Positions 30,197 through 38,624 of a DNA stretch of 40,462 bases are shown here, one piece after another. Within the stretch, counting starts at the first letter, position 1. The number at the start of each line of letters is the position of its first letter. A program made the position numbers and the translations under genes. The notes below the pieces were generated by a model. The model did not search any database, was not told where the DNA came from, and was given only the letters and a program-made list of their open reading frames with translations. The DNA comes from an uncultured Sphingomonadales bacterium (GTDB lineage: Bacteria > Pseudomonadota > Alphaproteobacteria > Sphingomonadales > Sphingomonadaceae), in assembly GCA_903923465.1 (NCBI GenBank), contig CAIXXP010000131.1, positions 1 through 40,462 of the forward strand. The letters run 5' to 3'.

Positions 30197-31549
30197 ATGA
30201 ACGCCCCCTGGACATCCGTCGCGGCCGACAGCGGGAACCTCATCCCCGGGCCCAGCGGCCCGTTCACCCTGAACGGCCGCGAGCCGCTCGCCGCCTTTGT
30301 CAGCGATCAGGCGTCGCTGGCCTGTGTGCGCGCCTGCCTTGTCGAACTCGGCTGGAACTCGGCAGGGTGTCACATCGGCGCGCCCGATGATGCCGTGCAG
30401 GCACTGGCCACCGCCGCCAGCCCGGCCATCCTGATTGTCGATCTTTCCGATTGCACCGTGCCGCTGGAGGAAATTCAGGCGCTGGCGCAGGTGTGCGAAC
30501 CGGGCACGCAGGTCATCGCCATCGGCCAGACCAACGACGTCCGCCTCTATCGCGCCCTGCTGGGCAGCGGCGTGCACGACTATCTGCTGAAGCCCCTGAG
30601 CGAAGGCCAGCTGGCGGAGGTGATTATCGGGGCGCAGGCCGCGCTTACCGCCCCGCGCCCGGTCGAGGCGGTGCAGGCCAGCCAGCACAGTATCGCCGCG
30701 GTCATCGGCACGCGCGGCGGTGTCGGCGCCTCCATGCTCGCCACCGCGCTGGCCTGGGTTTCCAGCACCGATCTGGCGCAGGCGACCGCCCTGCTCGATC
30801 TCGACATCCAGTTCGGCACCGGCGCCCTCAGCCTCGATCTCGACCCCGGGCGGGGCCTGATCGATGCCATCGAGAATCCCTCGCGCATCGACGGGCTGTT
30901 CATGCAGCGCGCGATGATCCAGGCCAGCAACACGCTGTCGGTGCTCGCGGCCGAGGCGCCAATCGCCGCGCCGGCCCCGGTCGAAGCCTCGACCCTGCTG
31001 CATCTGGCCGAGGAACTGGGCCATGCCTGTGCCGCCACGGTCATCGATTTTCCGCGCGCCATGTTGCCGACCATGGCCCCCTTCCTCGCCGAGGTGAACA
31101 CGGTGGTCCTCGCCACGGAACTCACCCTGGCGGGCGCCCGCGACACTATCCGCGTGCTCGACTGGCTGAAGTTCCACGCGCCGCACGCAAGGGTGGTGGT
31201 CGTTGCCAACAAGGTGCCCACCGGCCTTTGCGAGATCGGCCCCGGCGATTTCGAGGCCGCGATAGAACGCGGCATTGATTTCATGCTGCCCTTCGAGCCG
31301 CGCGTCGCCATTCAGGCCGCCAAGCACGGACAATGCTTTGCCGAGGCCGACCGGGGCGGCAAACTGGGCCAGACGCTGGTGGCCATCGCCTGGGCGGTCT
31401 GCGCGCCGGGCGAGGCCGACGGGCAGCCGCCCGCAATGCGAACCGCCACCACCCTGCTGGCCCGGTGGAACCCGCTAAAGCTGATGGACCATCTCATCGA
31501 CCAATTCCGCAAGGCCGGGCCGGGCCCCACCGCGAAGTCCGGCGGATGA
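30197..31549 (+). CDS. cpaE: Pilus assembly ATPase-like protein CpaE (TadZ)
   Basis: A 450-residue protein that places the Tad machinery at a pole. An N-terminal response-regulator-like domain (residues about 30-150; Asp82 in LIVDLSDC and Lys132 in DYLLKPLS stand at receiver positions) is followed by a MinD/ParA-type domain. Its P-loop reads GTRGGVGASML at 171-181: the conserved lysine of GKT/S is replaced by Ala-Ser, a known trait of many CpaE/TadZ. LLDLDIQFGTGALSLDLDP is the Walker A' region. The stop overlaps the tadB start (ATGA). In most Tad loci cpaF would follow here; it is missing. Confidence 0.93.
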   Translation: MNAPWTSVAADSGNLIPGPSGPFTLNGREPLAAFVSDQASLACVRACLVELGWNSAGCHIGAPDDAVQALATAASPAILIVDLSDCTVPLEEIQALAQVCEPGTQVIAIGQTNDVRLYRALLGSGVHDYLLKPLSEGQLAEVIIGAQAALTAPRPVEAVQASQHSIAAVIGTRGGVGASMLATALAWVSSTDLAQATALLDLDIQFGTGALSLDLDPGRGLIDAIENPSRIDGLFMQRAMIQASNTLSVLAAEAPIAAPAPVEASTLLHLAEELGHACAATVIDFPRAMLPTMAPFLAEVNTVVLATELTLAGARDTIRVLDWLKFHAPHARVVVVANKVPTGLCEIGPGDFEAAIERGIDFMLPFEPRVAIQAAKHGQCFAEADRGGKLGQTLVAIAWAVCAPGEADGQPPAMRTATTLLARWNPLKLMDHLIDQFRKAGPGPTAKSGG

Positions 31550-32550
31550 TGGCGGGCGTGCTGCTGTTCCTGATCGCCACGGCGGCCCAGTTGGCGCTGC
31601 TGTGGCTGGCGATGGCGCATCGTGGGGGGCTGGCCCGCAATGGCCGGCGGCTCCAGAGCTTGCGGCAACGCCACCCCGTCACCGCGCCCAACCGGCAGGA
31701 GGCCGCCGGCCGCCGGGCAAGTGCCGGCGGCCCGGCGAAAAACGGCGCCAGCAAGGCCGGACAAAATACCGCACCCACGCGCCCTGCCCTCGCCTTCGCC
31801 CCGATGGCCGCTTTCCTCACCGCGCGCCTGCACCGCACCGGCCTCGGCTGGAGCTTGCGGCGCTATCTCCAGATCAGCGCCGCGCTGGGTCTGGGGCTGG
31901 CGGGTCTCGTGCTGCTGAAGACCGGCTCGGTCAGCGCCGCGCTGCTGCTGGGCGGCATCGCCGGCGGGTGGCTGCCCTATGCGGTGGTGGGCAACCTCAT
32001 CACGCGGCGGCGGCGCGCCTTCATCACCAAGCTGCCCGAGGCGATAGAACTGCTCGTCGTCGGCCTGCGCTCCGGCCTGCCGGTCAGCGAGACGCTGGGC
32101 CTCGTCACCAACGAGGTGCCGGGGCCGGTGGGTCAGGAATTCAAGCTGGTCACCGAGCGCATGCGCATCGGCCGCAGCATGGAGGACGCCTTCGTGGACA
32201 GCGCCGAAAGGCTGGGCCTGCCGGAGTTTAATTTCTTCTGCATCACCCTGGCCATCCATCGCGAAACCGGCGGCAATTTGACGGAAACGCTGGTCAATCT
32301 GGCCGATGTGCTCCGCCGCCGCGCGCAGATGACGCTGAAGATCCGGGCGCTCAGTTCTGAATCGCGCACCTCCGCGATAATTTTGGGCGCCCTGCCGTTC
32401 ATCGTTTTCGGGATCATCTGGGCATCGGATGCCGCCTATCTTACCGGGTTTTTCACCGATCGCCGGTTGATCATCACCGGGCTGGGCGGGCTGGTGTGGA
32501 TGGCCATTGGCGCGGGCGTGATGGCCCGCATGGTCAGTTTCGACATCTGA
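31546..32550 (+). CDS. tadB: Tad pilus inner-membrane platform protein TadB
   Basis: A 334-residue T2SSF-domain protein that, with TadC, forms the inner-membrane platform for the pilus motor. A first helix (MMAGVLLFLIATAAQLALLWLAM) precedes two helices near residues 105-150, the cytoplasmic T2SSF domain (AIELLVVGLRSGLPVSETLGLV ... FFCITLAIHRETGGNLTETL), and two C-terminal helices. The true start is ATG 31546 at the cpaE stop; the track ORF to 31333 lies inside cpaE. Coupled translation with cpaE and 16-base spacing to tadC mark one operon. Confidence 0.93.
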   Translation: MMAGVLLFLIATAAQLALLWLAMAHRGGLARNGRRLQSLRQRHPVTAPNRQEAAGRRASAGGPAKNGASKAGQNTAPTRPALAFAPMAAFLTARLHRTGLGWSLRRYLQISAALGLGLAGLVLLKTGSVSAALLLGGIAGGWLPYAVVGNLITRRRRAFITKLPEAIELLVVGLRSGLPVSETLGLVTNEVPGPVGQEFKLVTERMRIGRSMEDAFVDSAERLGLPEFNFFCITLAIHRETGGNLTETLVNLADVLRRRAQMTLKIRALSSESRTSAIILGALPFIVFGIIWASDAAYLTGFFTDRRLIITGLGGLVWMAIGAGVMARMVSFDI

Positions 32551-32566
32551 GCGCGGGGCCACGACG

Positions 32567-33553
32567 ATGCACAGCCAAACCCCGCCCACCGCAACTGACC
32601 CGGCCATGCTGGGCGCGATTTTCGTCGCCCTCGCCTCGCTGGCGGTGCTGGTGGCGATCTATGCGGCGCTCTCGCTGCGCGACCCGATGCGCGAGCGTCT
32701 GGGCGCGCTTGGCGAGCGGCGCGACACCGCGAAGGCCGGGGGCCGGGCCTCTGTGGCGCGCAAGACCGGATCGCTGGGCCGCCGCAACCCCACCACAGAG
32801 CGCATCCGCGAATTTCTAGGGCAGTTCAAGATGCTGCAGGACAGCCAGCTGGCGGTGGTGCACCAGAAGCTGGCGCAGGCCGGCATCCGCAACCGGGAGT
32901 GGGGCGTGGCGGTCATCTTCGCGCGGCTGATGCTGCCCGTGGCGCTGGGGCTGCTGGCCAGCTGGTGGCTCTATGGGTCGAACAGCGCGGCCGAGTGGTC
33001 GGCCATGAAACGTTTCTTCGTCTTCGCCGGCATTCTCGTACTCAGCTATCGCCTGCCCGACATCTGGCTGGAAAACCGCGTTTCGAAGCGCACCGCCCTA
33101 CTGCGCGTCGGCCTGCCCGACGCGCTGGACCTGATGGTGATCTGCGCCGAGGCGGGCCTGACCATCGACGCCGCCTTTGGCCGCATCGCCCGCGAGCTGG
33201 AGCCCGCCTATCCGGAACTTTCCAGCGAGTTCGGGCTGACCGCAGTGGAACTGTCCTTCCTCTCCGAGCGGCGCCAGGCCTTCGAAAACCTCGCCTACCG
33301 GGTCAATCTGGATTCGATGAAAGGCGTGACCACCACCATGATCCAGACCGAACGCTATGGCACGCCGCTGGCCTCGGCCCTGCGCATCCTCGCCGCCGAT
33401 TTTCGCAACGAGCGCATGATGCGCGCGGAGGAAACGGCGGCCCGCCTGCCCGCGATCATGACGCTGCCGCTGGTGATGTTCATTCTGCCGGTGCTGTTCG
33501 TGGTGATCATGGGCCCGGCGGCCTGCTCCATCGCGGATGCGTTTGCGAAGTAG
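32567..33553 (+). CDS. tadC: Tad pilus inner-membrane platform protein TadC
   Basis: A 328-residue partner of TadB with the same T2SSF domain. The N-terminal helix (AIFVALASLAVLVAIYAALSLRD), a cytoplasmic linker, two central helices and the T2SSF block (GLPDALDLMVICAEAGLTIDAAFGRIARELEP ... LRILAADFRNERMMRAEETAARLP) are followed by a last helix, VMFILPVLFVVIMGPA. It is the last gene of the cluster in this window; the next gene, mtnP, is convergent. No TadD, TadG or TadE/F gene follows. Confidence 0.93.
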   Translation: MHSQTPPTATDPAMLGAIFVALASLAVLVAIYAALSLRDPMRERLGALGERRDTAKAGGRASVARKTGSLGRRNPTTERIREFLGQFKMLQDSQLAVVHQKLAQAGIRNREWGVAVIFARLMLPVALGLLASWWLYGSNSAAEWSAMKRFFVFAGILVLSYRLPDIWLENRVSKRTALLRVGLPDALDLMVICAEAGLTIDAAFGRIARELEPAYPELSSEFGLTAVELSFLSERRQAFENLAYRVNLDSMKGVTTTMIQTERYGTPLASALRILAADFRNERMMRAEETAARLPAIMTLPLVMFILPVLFVVIMGPAACSIADAFAK

Positions 33554-33740: not shown

Positions 33741-34613
33741 CTACCGCAACACCCGCCCCGCCACGGCATCCAGCATCGCCATCAGCCGGCCATCCCGCGC
33801 TTGCGGCGCCGTGGCCAGCGCATGCGTCAGTGCCGTATCAATCGGCGAGCCCTCGCGCACCGCTGGCAGGCTGGCGGCAAGGCGGCGCACCGCATTGCGC
33901 GCGACGGCGGCGTTGGCGCCCATCAGCGCGAAGACGTCCGCCGCCTCCACCCCGGCGGCATCGTCGCGCCAGGCGTCATAGTCGGTCACCATCGCCAGCA
34001 TGGCATAGGGCAGCTCCGCCTCGCGGGCGAGGCGCGCCTCGGGCATGCCGGTCATGCCGATGACGTCGGCGCCCCACTGGCGGTACATCCGGCTTTCGGC
34101 GCGGGTGGAGAATTGCGGCCCCTCGATGGCGACATAGCAGCCGCCGCGATGCACCGTTGCCCCCGCGCCCTCCGCCGCATCGGCCAGCAAGGCGGAAAGG
34201 CGCGGGCACGCGGGATCGGCCAGCGAAACATGCGCCACCAGCCCCGGCCCGAAGAAGCTGTTCGCGCGCGCATGGGTGCGGTCGATGAACTGATCCACCG
34301 CCACCATGTGCCCGGGCGCCATCGCTTCCCGCAGCGATCCGATGGCCGAGAGGGCGATGACATCACTGACGCCACAGCGTTTCAGCACATCGATATTCGC
34401 GCGATAATTGACGGAGGACGGCGGGATCGCATGCCCCGCCCCGTGCCGCGCCAGGAAGGTGAAACGCACGCCGCCCAGGCTTCCGGTTGTCACCGGGCCC
34501 GACGGCGCGCCAAACGGGCTGCATACCGCGATGTCCTGCGCCGTTTCCAGCCCGATGCCATCGGCCAGGCCAGAACCGCCGATCACCCCGATATGCCACT
34601 GCCTGCCGCTCAT
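33741..34613 (-). CDS. mtnP: S-methyl-5'-thioadenosine phosphorylase
   Basis: A 290-residue purine nucleoside phosphorylase family enzyme that splits methylthioadenosine into adenine and methylthioribose-1-phosphate in methionine salvage. The phosphate loop GVIGGSGLADG is at residues 9-19, RHGAGHAIPPSSVNYRANI follows, and EGPQFSTRAESRMYRQWGADVIGMTGMPEARLAREAELPYAMLAMVTDYD contains the substrate pocket. The aspartate of TDYD supports a 6-aminopurine (adenine) over a hypoxanthine specificity. ATG 34613 is preferred, with GGGGG upstream; the track ORF adds 30 residues. It is convergent with tadC and follows the TetR gene by 34 bases, so it may share its transcript. Confidence 0.93.
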   Translation of the reverse strand: MSGRQWHIGVIGGSGLADGIGLETAQDIAVCSPFGAPSGPVTTGSLGGVRFTFLARHGAGHAIPPSSVNYRANIDVLKRCGVSDVIALSAIGSLREAMAPGHMVAVDQFIDRTHARANSFFGPGLVAHVSLADPACPRLSALLADAAEGAGATVHRGGCYVAIEGPQFSTRAESRMYRQWGADVIGMTGMPEARLAREAELPYAMLAMVTDYDAWRDDAAGVEAADVFALMGANAAVARNAVRRLAASLPAVREGSPIDTALTHALATAPQARDGRLMAMLDAVAGRVLR

Positions 34614-34647
34614 CGCTTTCCCCCTCGCGCCGGGCCTGCCCGCATAT

Positions 34648-35283
34648 TCACACCAGAATGCCGGCGACGACGAACTCGTTGAGGTGCGCGCGGTACCGGT
34701 CACGCAGGGATTCGTCGAGCACGTCGGCCTGCGAGCAATATTTCAGCACCAGCCGGGCCGAGAAGAACCGGTCGGCCGCGCCAATCACGGTGAAATAGAA
34801 CAATTGCGGGTCCACCGGGCGAAACACCCCGGCCGCCACCCCGTCGGAGATCAGCCGCTCATAGGCGCCCAGCAGCGGCTTCAGATAGGAATCGGCCAGC
34901 CGCTGCGCCTCCTCCGCGTCGCACTCGCGGATCATCCGCATCAGCAGGCGGTGGATGTAGGGCGTGCGGAAGAAAGTATCGACCACCGCCGTCAGGTGGC
35001 GGCGAAACTTGGCCTCCGGGTCCATATCCTTGGCCAGCAGCGCATCCACCGAGGCGACGATGTCGGCCATGTCGCGCTCCAGCAGCGCCTTCAGCAGCCC
35101 CGCCTTGTTGCCGAAATAATACTTAACCAGCGCCGAATTCAGCCCCGATCGCGCCGCCAGTTCCGACAGCGAGATATCGACCAGATCGCCCTCGCGCATG
35201 ATGGCGCTGGCCGTGTCGAGCAACTGCGCGGCCGCACCCGGCTCGGCGCCAGCGCCCACCGGGGCCAGAGAGATCTGCGCCAT
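34648..35283 (-). CDS. TetR-family transcriptional regulator
   Basis: A 211-residue TetR regulator. The helix-turn-helix is at about residues 37-60 (DISLSELAARSGLNSALVKYYFGNKAGLL), with the family-typical KYYFGNK end. The C-terminal ligand domain contains FFRTPYIHRLLMRMI and LFYFTVIGAADRFFSARLV, and resembles regulators of fatty-acid or acyl-CoA genes, but the ligand is not predictable. The track start at 35289 is GTG; ATG 35283 is preferred. It lies 27 bases after the SDR gene on the same strand, so the two are probably co-transcribed and self-regulated from the site near 36130. Confidence 0.9.
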   Translation of the reverse strand: MAQISLAPVGAGAEPGAAAQLLDTASAIMREGDLVDISLSELAARSGLNSALVKYYFGNKAGLLKALLERDMADIVASVDALLAKDMDPEAKFRRHLTAVVDTFFRTPYIHRLLMRMIRECDAEEAQRLADSYLKPLLGAYERLISDGVAAGVFRPVDPQLFYFTVIGAADRFFSARLVLKYCSQADVLDESLRDRYRAHLNEFVVAGILV

Positions 35284-35310
35284 GCTCACGCCAGCCGACC
35301 CCGCGCCGGA

Positions 35311-36093
<783 letters not shown>

Positions 36094-36384: not shown

Positions 36385-37053
36385 ATGATGAAACGGTTCG
36401 CAACGGCCCTCGCCCTGGCAATGGCCGCGCTGTCCACCAGCGCCATGGCCCAGCCCGCGCCCATATTGGAAGCGGCCGATCCCGACACATTCCAGCCGGC
36501 AGGCTATTCACCCGGCCCGACAATCAACCTCACCCTTTATGGCGAAAACATTCCGCCCGATTGGGGCAATCACCCGGATTTCCGCGAATATTGGCATGTT
36601 TTTGTCCGCAGCGTGTCACCGGATGGCACTGCGGGCGCATGGAGCCATTGTGACGATTCCGACGGTTGCGGCCTCGTCGGCTTCAACTCCGCCGAAATGA
36701 TCATGAACGTGAACCTGCGGCGGTGGGCCAGCACCAACAACAGCACCTTCCAGATGCACTATTACACCGGGCTGGATGACCCCGGCGCGACGGACCCTGC
36801 GGTGAACAAATACCACCAGCCCCTGTCGAACTGGTCCAATATCTGGTCGTGGAAAGTGGCCGCGGTTCGGGCCGAGGCACCGCCCGCCCCCCATCCCATC
36901 GTGCTGCGCGCAAGGGCGCTGGCGGTAATCCCCGTTGCCCCGCCGCCCAAAGCCGTGATGCGCGTCCGGCCGGGCATGGTTCAACTGCCCCTCGCACCGC
37001 GTCCGCTCGCCACGCCAGCGCCGCTGGCCGCCCCCGCGCAACTGCCGCACTAG
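36385..37053 (+). CDS. Secreted protein of unknown function
   Basis: A 222-residue protein with a clear Sec signal peptide, MMKRFATALALAMAALSTSAMA, cut before QPAPILEA. The mature N-terminal 130 residues look folded, with aromatic residues, short beta-like stretches (INLTLYGENIPPDWGNHPDF, YWHVFVRSVSPDG, MIMNVNLRRWASTNNSTFQMHYY) and a cysteine pair in HCDDSDGCG that may form a disulfide. The C-terminal 60 residues are Pro/Ala/Arg-rich and probably disordered. I recognise no family. The ATG at 36385 is preceded by GGGAG; the track ORF starts 36 codons earlier. It is transcribed divergently from the SDR gene, 291 bases away, with the candidate operator in between. Confidence 0.78.
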   Translation: MMKRFATALALAMAALSTSAMAQPAPILEAADPDTFQPAGYSPGPTINLTLYGENIPPDWGNHPDFREYWHVFVRSVSPDGTAGAWSHCDDSDGCGLVGFNSAEMIMNVNLRRWASTNNSTFQMHYYTGLDDPGATDPAVNKYHQPLSNWSNIWSWKVAAVRAEAPPAPHPIVLRARALAVIPVAPPPKAVMRVRPGMVQLPLAPRPLATPAPLAAPAQLPH

Positions 37054-37060
37054 GCCGGCG

Positions 37061-37081
37061 GCGGCAATGGCCTCTTGCCGC
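37061..37081. terminator. Hairpin between convergent genes
   Basis: GCGGCAA-TGGCCTC-TTGCCGC forms a 7-bp stem with a 7-base loop, just after the stop of the secreted-protein gene and reaching the stop codon of the convergent crotonase-fold gene. There is no T-tract, so termination is only suggested by position. Confidence 0.4.
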
Positions 37082-37845
37082 TAGCTGCGGTCGCGGATCG
37101 CCACGCCCTCCAGCATCAGCCCATAACCGAGGTCGTCCAGCATCCGCCGCTTGATCTGCTGGGTGAAGGCAACGCGGGTATAGCGCAGCATCAGCGAGGG
37201 CTTGGCGGCAAGGCCGGTGGCCACTTCCCAGGCGCGGGGCAGCAGGCGCTCGGGCGCCACCACCTCGGCGACGAAGCCCAGCGCCAGGCCCTCGGCGGCG
37301 GAGATCTCCTGCCCGGTCAGCAGGAAATGGCGCGCCCGGTTCATGCCCAGCAGCATCGGCCACCACACATGCACCCCATCGGCCGGGACAACGCCGGCGG
37401 TGGCATGGGCCTTGTCGGCAAAGGACGCCGTTTCCGATGCGATGACGATGTCCGACATGGTCAGCAATTCGGCATGGAGGAAAGCCGGGCCATTGGCCGC
37501 GCCAATGATTGGCGCCTCGATATCCAGCAGGTTCATCAACAGGTCGCGGCCCTCGCGGCGGATGCGGTCCCAGTCATGCGCGGTGGCCCCGGCCGGATTC
37601 GCCCAGCCGGGTCCGTATTTCGCCATGAAGCTGTCGCCGGTGCCGGTGAGGATGACGACGCGGTTATCGGTGTCGCGGCCGATCTTGTAGAAGGCGTCGC
37701 CCAGCTCGTCGTGCAGGCCGCCCGGCTCGGCAAAGCTCCATTCCGCCGGGCCGCCGTTGCAATGCAGGGTGACCTGCAGGATGCCGTCGCGGCGGTCTAG
37801 CTTTATGTACTTGTATTGGTGCTGATAGCTGCCGAGCTGTGCCAA
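37081..37845 (-). CDS. Crotonase-fold hydrolase resembling 6-oxocamphor hydrolase
   Basis: A 254-residue crotonase-superfamily protein. It would be called enoyl-CoA hydratase by general search, but it aligns without large gaps to 6-oxocamphor hydrolase (OCH), a beta-diketone C-C hydrolase, as I recall that sequence: VVILTGTGDSF, LLMNLLDIEAPIIGAANGP, DGVHVWWPMLLGMNRARHFLLTGQE and LLPRAWEVATGLAAKP. The OCH active-site residues Trp40, His122, His145, Asp154 and Glu244 have counterparts at Trp36, His124, His147, Asp156 and Glu246. The start is TTG 37845: AGGAGG lies 5 bases upstream, and the longer track ORF lacks similarity. A retro-Claisen ring-opening role on an alicyclic diketone is plausible but inferred. 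Confidence 0.8.
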   Translation of the reverse strand: MAQLGSYQHQYKYIKLDRRDGILQVTLHCNGGPAEWSFAEPGGLHDELGDAFYKIGRDTDNRVVILTGTGDSFMAKYGPGWANPAGATAHDWDRIRREGRDLLMNLLDIEAPIIGAANGPAFLHAELLTMSDIVIASETASFADKAHATAGVVPADGVHVWWPMLLGMNRARHFLLTGQEISAAEGLALGFVAEVVAPERLLPRAWEVATGLAAKPSLMLRYTRVAFTQQIKRRMLDDLGYGLMLEGVAIRDRS

Positions 37846-38624
37846 GCGATCCTCCTGTGGTTCGTTGCCGGTTTGCGCGGGGCGGGGGCAGCGGTTGGGG
37901 GATAATCTGGCGCAAGGGGGCGGCCGCGGCAAGGGTGGTTGTCAGGTTCGTGGAGGGGTCGACGGGGGTTTAGTTGATGAAGTGCATGCGGGTGGGGCCA
38001 TGCTTCATCGCGCCGCCCGTCCGCTCTGGGGGCGTGGGCCGGGCGCGGGGGCGCCCGCGGCGGTGAGGGGTGGGGATGGACGGTGGAAAGAGCCGTCCGG
38101 ATGGTGACAGAGGGTGGCGGTGTAGGACAGGGGCAGGTCTATCCAATTGCGGAGTTCGGGTACTGAACCGGTCTGGGCAACTCGCCAGTCGTTCACGCAG
38201 CTGATTGCGGTCCCCTCTCGCCAACCGTTGCGGAACGCCTCCCGGTCGGCCTTCTGTGAGTGCCCGTTTTGGGGATCGGCCAAACCGGTTTGCTATGAAG
38301 CGGATCTGGCTCAGGCTGCGCCCGACTACGAAATAGCGTGCGCTTTCAACAACCCAGGTATTCACCGCTCGAACGATATCCGACGGGGATACCTTGGGGC
38401 GCAAGGCAATTAGGTAACATTTTTAACCGGGCCAGCCACTATTTTGGACTCTTTGCCCAAGGACCAAATTTCCAATCTCCACATTCCAAGCATTCTCCGC
38501 GAAGCGGGATAGGCTTTGCGACTTGGCCTGATGGCGCTCGGCTGCGGGGACGCGCCGAGGCGGACAGTAATGGGAGCGCGAGGGTCTTAGACCCTCGCAC
38601 CTGCCCTGTTTTTGCCTTGCAGCT
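37846..38624. other. Gene-poor interval with an AT-richer patch and a possible decayed gene
   Basis: No convincing gene was found in these 779 bases. GC falls to about 45-52% at 38401-38520 against roughly 65-70% around it, which suggests foreign or decaying DNA. On the minus strand two overlapping frames read like protein: VSPSDIVRAVNTWVVESARYF (upstream of about 38280) and ADREAFRNGWREGTAISCV (about 38240 onward), shifted by one base against each other. They could be one frameshifted gene, but I recognise neither half. A solo repeat end lies at 38561-38599. Confidence 0.35.
38561..38599. repeat. Solo end of the hairpin-ended element (copy D)
   Basis: CGGACAGTAATGGGAGCGCG followed by AGGGTCTTAGACCCTCGCA nearly repeats the right end of the element at 24537-24574. 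The hairpin GCGAGGGT-CTTAG-ACCCTCGC is perfect. No matching left end was seen within 200 bp, so the rest of the element is lost or diverged. It lies 25 bases past the clpB stop and could help end clpB transcription. Confidence 0.8.

Follow-up and report, generated by a model that had tools for sequence, protein, structure and literature searches.

A probable CoA-independent β-diketone hydrolase of the 6-oxocamphor hydrolase family in a sphingomonad genome

Introduction

The stretch of DNA analysed here (the window, 40,462 nucleotides from an uncultured Sphingomonadales bacterium) contains a gene for a crotonase-fold protein. The question is whether this protein is an ordinary enoyl-CoA hydratase (ECH) acting on a CoA thioester or a C–C bond hydrolase of the 6-oxocamphor hydrolase (OCH) type, as a preliminary description had proposed. 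The latter family call has support from the sequence and predicted fold as well as from the active-site columns and the phylogeny. By analogy with OCH and the β-diketone hydrolase ABDH, the gene product is probably a CoA-independent β-diketone hydrolase (retro-Claisenase) built on the crotonase fold.

Results

The gene and its coding status

The open reading frame at 37081–37845 in the preliminary description is a real coding gene, located on the minus strand. It starts with TTG (37845–37843) and ends with TAG (37083–37081). In the alignment with a relative (L070), 62–65% identical, the TTG falls opposite that relative's ATG. The GC content by codon position is 0.68/0.45/0.87, and differences from the nearest relatives are most frequent at third codon positions (67/51/119 against the paralogue, for example), indicating that the gene is maintained as a coding gene. 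A long plus-strand open reading frame across the same interval is probably an antisense shadow. A second OCH-type gene, 64–65% identical and with a complete catalytic set, is present in the same 3-Mb genome (contig C233, 13768–14505). The features of the window gene are as follows, with residues numbered from the start at 37845.

37081..37845, minus strand: OCH/ABDH-type crotonase-fold gene, 254 amino acids, TTG start (sequence, homology and fold evidence)
37851..37856, minus strand: AGGAGG ribosome-binding site, 5 bases ahead of the TTG start (sequence)
37738..37740, minus strand: codon of Trp36, aligned with OCH Trp40 and with Phe in ABDH
37711..37713, minus strand: codon of His45, equivalent to OCH His45 and ABDH His43 (alignment)
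37474..37476, minus strand: codon of His124, equivalent to OCH His122, in the loop where ordinary crotonases carry the oxyanion-hole Gly
37405..37407, minus strand: codon of His147, equivalent to OCH His145 and ABDH His144, in the column of the ECH catalytic Glu164
37378..37380, minus strand: codon of Asp156, equivalent to OCH Asp154 and ABDH Asp153 (alignment)
37108..37110, minus strand: codon of Glu246, equivalent to OCH Glu244 and ABDH Glu243 (alignment)

Family assignment from sequence and predicted fold

The best matches in a sequence search of the PDB were ABDH (2j5g, E 4.7e-67) and OCH (1o8u, E 2.3e-66), followed by EchA15 at E 3.6e-26, which gives OCH and ABDH a lead of about 40 orders of magnitude over every CoA crotonase in the PDB. 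The Pfam scan returned ECH_1 at 94 bits against a cut-off of 27. The NCBIfam scan returned no model or equivalog at cut-off, and no OCH-specific model fired. Automatic annotation would consequently name the protein an enoyl-CoA hydratase.

Two checks named in the preliminary description, alignment with OCH and ABDH and comparison of an AlphaFold model with the OCH crystal structure, gave concordant results. Over the whole length the protein is 49% identical to OCH and 47% identical to ABDH, with the catalytic residues matched. An AlphaFold model built with 41 window and locus sequences (pLDDT 90.6) agrees at the level of the overall fold with OCH (1szo/1o8u; TM 0.94, 1.5 Å) and with ABDH (TM 0.92). 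The 12 best PDB structure matches are all OCH or ABDH chains (TM 0.92–0.94, 1.5–1.6 Å), after which a gap extends to E 1e-19, with EchA15 at a TM of about 0.83. OCH and ABDH are the only solved structures of the family in the PDB copy searched. The window protein is almost certainly a member of this small 6-oxocamphor/β-diketone hydrolase family.

The active site

All five residues singled out in the preliminary description (Trp36, His124, His147, Asp156 and Glu246) are present, but His45 had been left out. The catalytic residues of ABDH are His43, His144, Asp153 and Glu243 (PMC3584854), each of which has an equivalent in the alignment with the window protein. The spacing, described as nearly the same as in OCH, holds strictly for four residues, His124, His147, Asp156 and Glu246, which stand at a constant offset of +2 from OCH His122, His145, Asp154 and Glu244. 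It is loose for Trp36, which aligns with OCH Trp40 at an offset of −4, with a four-residue insert between Trp36 and His45. In the 1szo structure, titled in the PDB as a His122Ala mutant, the Ala lies directly opposite His124.

None of the five residues His45, His124, His147, Asp156 and Glu246 varies among 69 clade members, which represent sphingomonads, Acetobacteraceae, Burkholderiales, an actinobacterium and cyanobacteria. Judged by sequence, the residue match to OCH is far beyond chance, given homology at E of about 1e-66 and retention of the set in all 69. The Trp36 column varies among Trp, Tyr and Phe within the clade, and Trp36 was dropped as a diagnostic residue for that reason. Changes at otherwise conserved positions of the window protein include Gly155 to Ala, beside Asp156, and Ala186 to Gly.

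Comparison with ordinary crotonases

Column 124 lacks His in every other readable crotonase-fold protein of the same genome, leaving aside two rows (L120 and L124) whose alignment was too weak for a call. Gly, in a loop longer by one residue, fills this column in nearly all of them, and Glu stands at 147 in those of the classical type. Three paralogues (L112, L113 and L118, on contigs C64, C231 and C120) share His147, Asp156 and Glu246 and keep Gly at 124; these crotonases carry a D-x-H...GDGG motif. The statement that ordinary crotonases lack the residue set is therefore correct for the full set, none of the readable own-genome crotonases having His124, but not for its last three members. Since the three paralogues share these, the full set is diagnostic and His147, Asp156 and Glu246 alone are not; their use as a diagnostic was abandoned.

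These columns bear directly on the ordinary reading, in which the protein is an enoyl-CoA hydratase or isomerase. The Pfam score together with the lack of an OCH model in NCBIfam favours it, as does the Glu at the ECH Glu144 column (E126), which is also kept in OCH and ABDH. However, the catalytic Glu164 of ECH is absent, its column being occupied by His147, and the Gly-rich oxyanion loop (Gly141) is not matched, the window loop being one residue shorter and carrying His124. With the lead of OCH and ABDH in the PDB search and no NCBIfam equivalog reached, an ordinary enoyl-CoA hydratase is very improbable, and this reading was rejected on the active-site residues.

Neighborhood of the gene in the window

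The preliminary description had suggested, speculatively, that a nearby SDR gene (35311–36093) could supply the ketone. Of the 31 genomes in the genus, 30 carry a close relative of this SDR. In the genus relatives examined it lies beside TetR, and mostly also beside MTAP and tad genes, with no OCH-like gene there. An opposed open reading frame separates the SDR from the OCH-like gene in the window. The near-universal occurrence, the synteny without the gene and the intervening reading frame speak against an SDR–OCH pathway in the window, which was rejected, and the suggested link is not supported.

In three genus relatives, SDR and TetR are separated by an ordinary crotonase gene. The MTAP–TetR–SDR block (33741–36093, minus strand) stands beside cpaE/tadB/tadC (30197–33553, plus strand), an order kept in most of the genus relatives examined. 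An open reading frame at about 36385–37053 (plus strand), flanking the OCH-type gene, has a signal-peptide-like start; neither Pfam nor NCBIfam has a family that matches it, and tblastn gave no hit to it in the corresponding syntenic regions of eight relatives from the genus. No catabolic genes adjoin the OCH-type gene in the window.

The clade and its distribution

A contig scan together with family and class searches yielded about 70 relatives, most of them 45–64% identical and all with the five catalytic residues. The gene is rare across the family: a match at E < 1e-70 was found in 8 of 401 genomes, the window's own counted. In a maximum-likelihood tree, the window protein and its own paralogue (C233) fall in a sphingomonad group (support 97/85; 100/95). 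OCH pairs with a Nocardioides protein and ABDH lies among cyanobacteria. The whole OCH/ABDH-type clade is set apart (93/96) from the outgroup, which consists of crotonases of the same genome. Within it, OCH and ABDH group together with the sphingomonad clade outside (96/91), and the two therefore do not bracket the sphingomonad clade. We know of no assayed member of the sphingomonad subclade. As the window protein belongs to a subclade separate from OCH, a camphor-type substrate is not implied.

A divergent branch from Sphingomonas and Bradyrhizobiaceae (L064, L065 and L066; 35–40% identity) keeps all five catalytic residues, has Asn118 replaced by Glu and His159 by Phe, and is possibly another subfamily. 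Tandem OCH-type pairs are found in a Burkholderiales MAG (L062, 8001–8738 and 10221–11003) and in an alphaproteobacterium (L085).

Gene calls around clade members elsewhere were mechanical, with HMM support for the neighbors that were scanned and the remainder assigned by reading of the sequence. A same-strand SDR lies within about 250 bases of the clade gene at a dozen loci, mostly cyanobacterial, plus a Burkholderia locus. Other loci contain genes for P450, KstD-like FAD dehydrogenase, GMC, old-yellow-enzyme, TauD, iron-containing alcohol dehydrogenase, Baeyer–Villiger and Rieske proteins. Such oxidoreductase neighbors suit a role in alicyclic catabolism. In two relatives of the same family (genomes G366 and G323; loci L079 and L080), the clade gene is directly beside a 3-ketosteroid-dehydrogenase-like FAD protein, which scores 682 bits, under the cut-off of 789. 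At Acetobacteraceae/Roseomonadaceae loci (L019, L020, L021, L024, L025 and L027–L030), an iron-containing alcohol dehydrogenase gene directly precedes the OCH-type gene, and most of these loci have branched-chain-type ABC transporter genes on the opposite strand.

Discussion

Proposed mechanism and alternative readings

We infer the reaction of the window protein, its CoA-independence and its activation of water from OCH and ABDH. On the model of OCH, a water molecule would be activated by the dyad of His147 and Asp156, which is surrounded by His45, His124 and Glu246, and would attack one carbonyl of a 1,3-diketone, probably cyclic and non-enolisable. The C–C bond between the carbonyls would then break, the enolate would be protonated and a keto acid would be released. 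His124 stands at the place of the Gly-rich oxyanion loop of CoA crotonases, and a hydrogen bond from Trp36 to the second carbonyl is probable, like the one reportedly made by OCH Trp40. In the OCH mutant work of Leonard and Grogan (2004), the acid end of the product is reportedly bound by the His145/Asp154 dyad, and the other carbonyl is in contact with Trp40. As natural substrate, a diketone of alicyclic or terpenoid type is the most likely, supplied by oxidoreductases whose genes lie elsewhere in the genome.

Two further readings accept C–C cleavage or the fold and alter the chemistry. One is cleavage of a 1,3-dicarbonyl bound as CoA thioester. The steroid ring-D hydrolase EchA20 provides the precedent, as it shows ring hydrolysis of CoA-bound diketones to be within the reach of crotonases (PMC6678751), and the KstD-like FAD protein adjoining the gene in the G366 and G323 relatives points the same way. 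The closest relatives, OCH and ABDH, nevertheless use free diketones and their catalytic residues match throughout; with EchA20 compared by description only, we consider this reading unlikely, though less so than the ordinary hydratase. The other is that fold and site were kept while the sphingomonad subclade drifted to a different hydrolytic or isomerising reaction, for instance on a vinylogous substrate. The distinct subclade, the Trp36–His45 insert, the lineage-specific changes and the two paralogues in one genome, 64–65% identical, are consistent with drift. Retention of all five catalytic side chains with unchanged spacing from His124 to Glu246 argues against it and leaves drift with little probability.

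β-Diketone hydrolysis without CoA remains the preferred reading. It is weakened by the position of the sphingomonad clade outside the OCH–ABDH pair, by the insert in the Trp loop, by the changes at otherwise conserved positions and by the absence of catabolic genes next to the window gene. A bolder proposal, which we put forward tentatively and judge less likely than not, is that the sphingomonad subclade may open an alicyclic 1,3-diketone other than 6-oxocamphor, terpenoid- or steroid-like, in an undescribed catabolic route in which oxidation by P450/ferredoxin, KstD-like, GMC or SDR enzymes would be followed by CoA-free retro-Claisen cleavage.

The OCH/ABDH-type clade with a fully conserved site is wider than its two solved members, extending over sphingomonads, Acetobacteraceae, Burkholderiales and cyanobacteria. 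If such genes were relabelled, their annotation would be corrected, new candidate enantioselective C–C hydrolases would be gained and attention would be drawn to unexplored clusters for alicyclic degradation.

Comparison with known systems

Classical ECH (PF00378) shares with the window protein the crotonase fold and the Glu at the Glu144 column, but differs in the Glu164 column and in the oxyanion loop. EchA15-type crotonases (3qk8, 3q1t and 7m3w) are more distant than OCH and ABDH, at 26–29% identity and a TM of about 0.83. In one of them, the M. avium crotonase 3q1t, two His, an Asp and a Glu match those of ABDH, and the protein has been suggested to be a β-diketone hydrolase (PMC3584854); the own-genome proteins with the 3q1t-like D-x-H...GDGG motif keep Gly at 124. 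ABDH (alr4455; 2j5g and 2j5s) is alike in sequence, in predicted fold and in its four catalytic residues, and has Phe where the window protein has Trp36. Its cyanobacterial relatives mostly have an SDR gene just downstream on the same strand, whereas the window gene does not. Compared with OCH from Rhodococcus (1o8u and 1szo), the window protein has the four-residue insert between Trp and His45, about two extra residues in the 78–90 loop and a place in a separate subclade. It resembles OCH in sequence over the whole length, in predicted fold and in the five catalytic residues, and its Trp36 aligns with Trp40.
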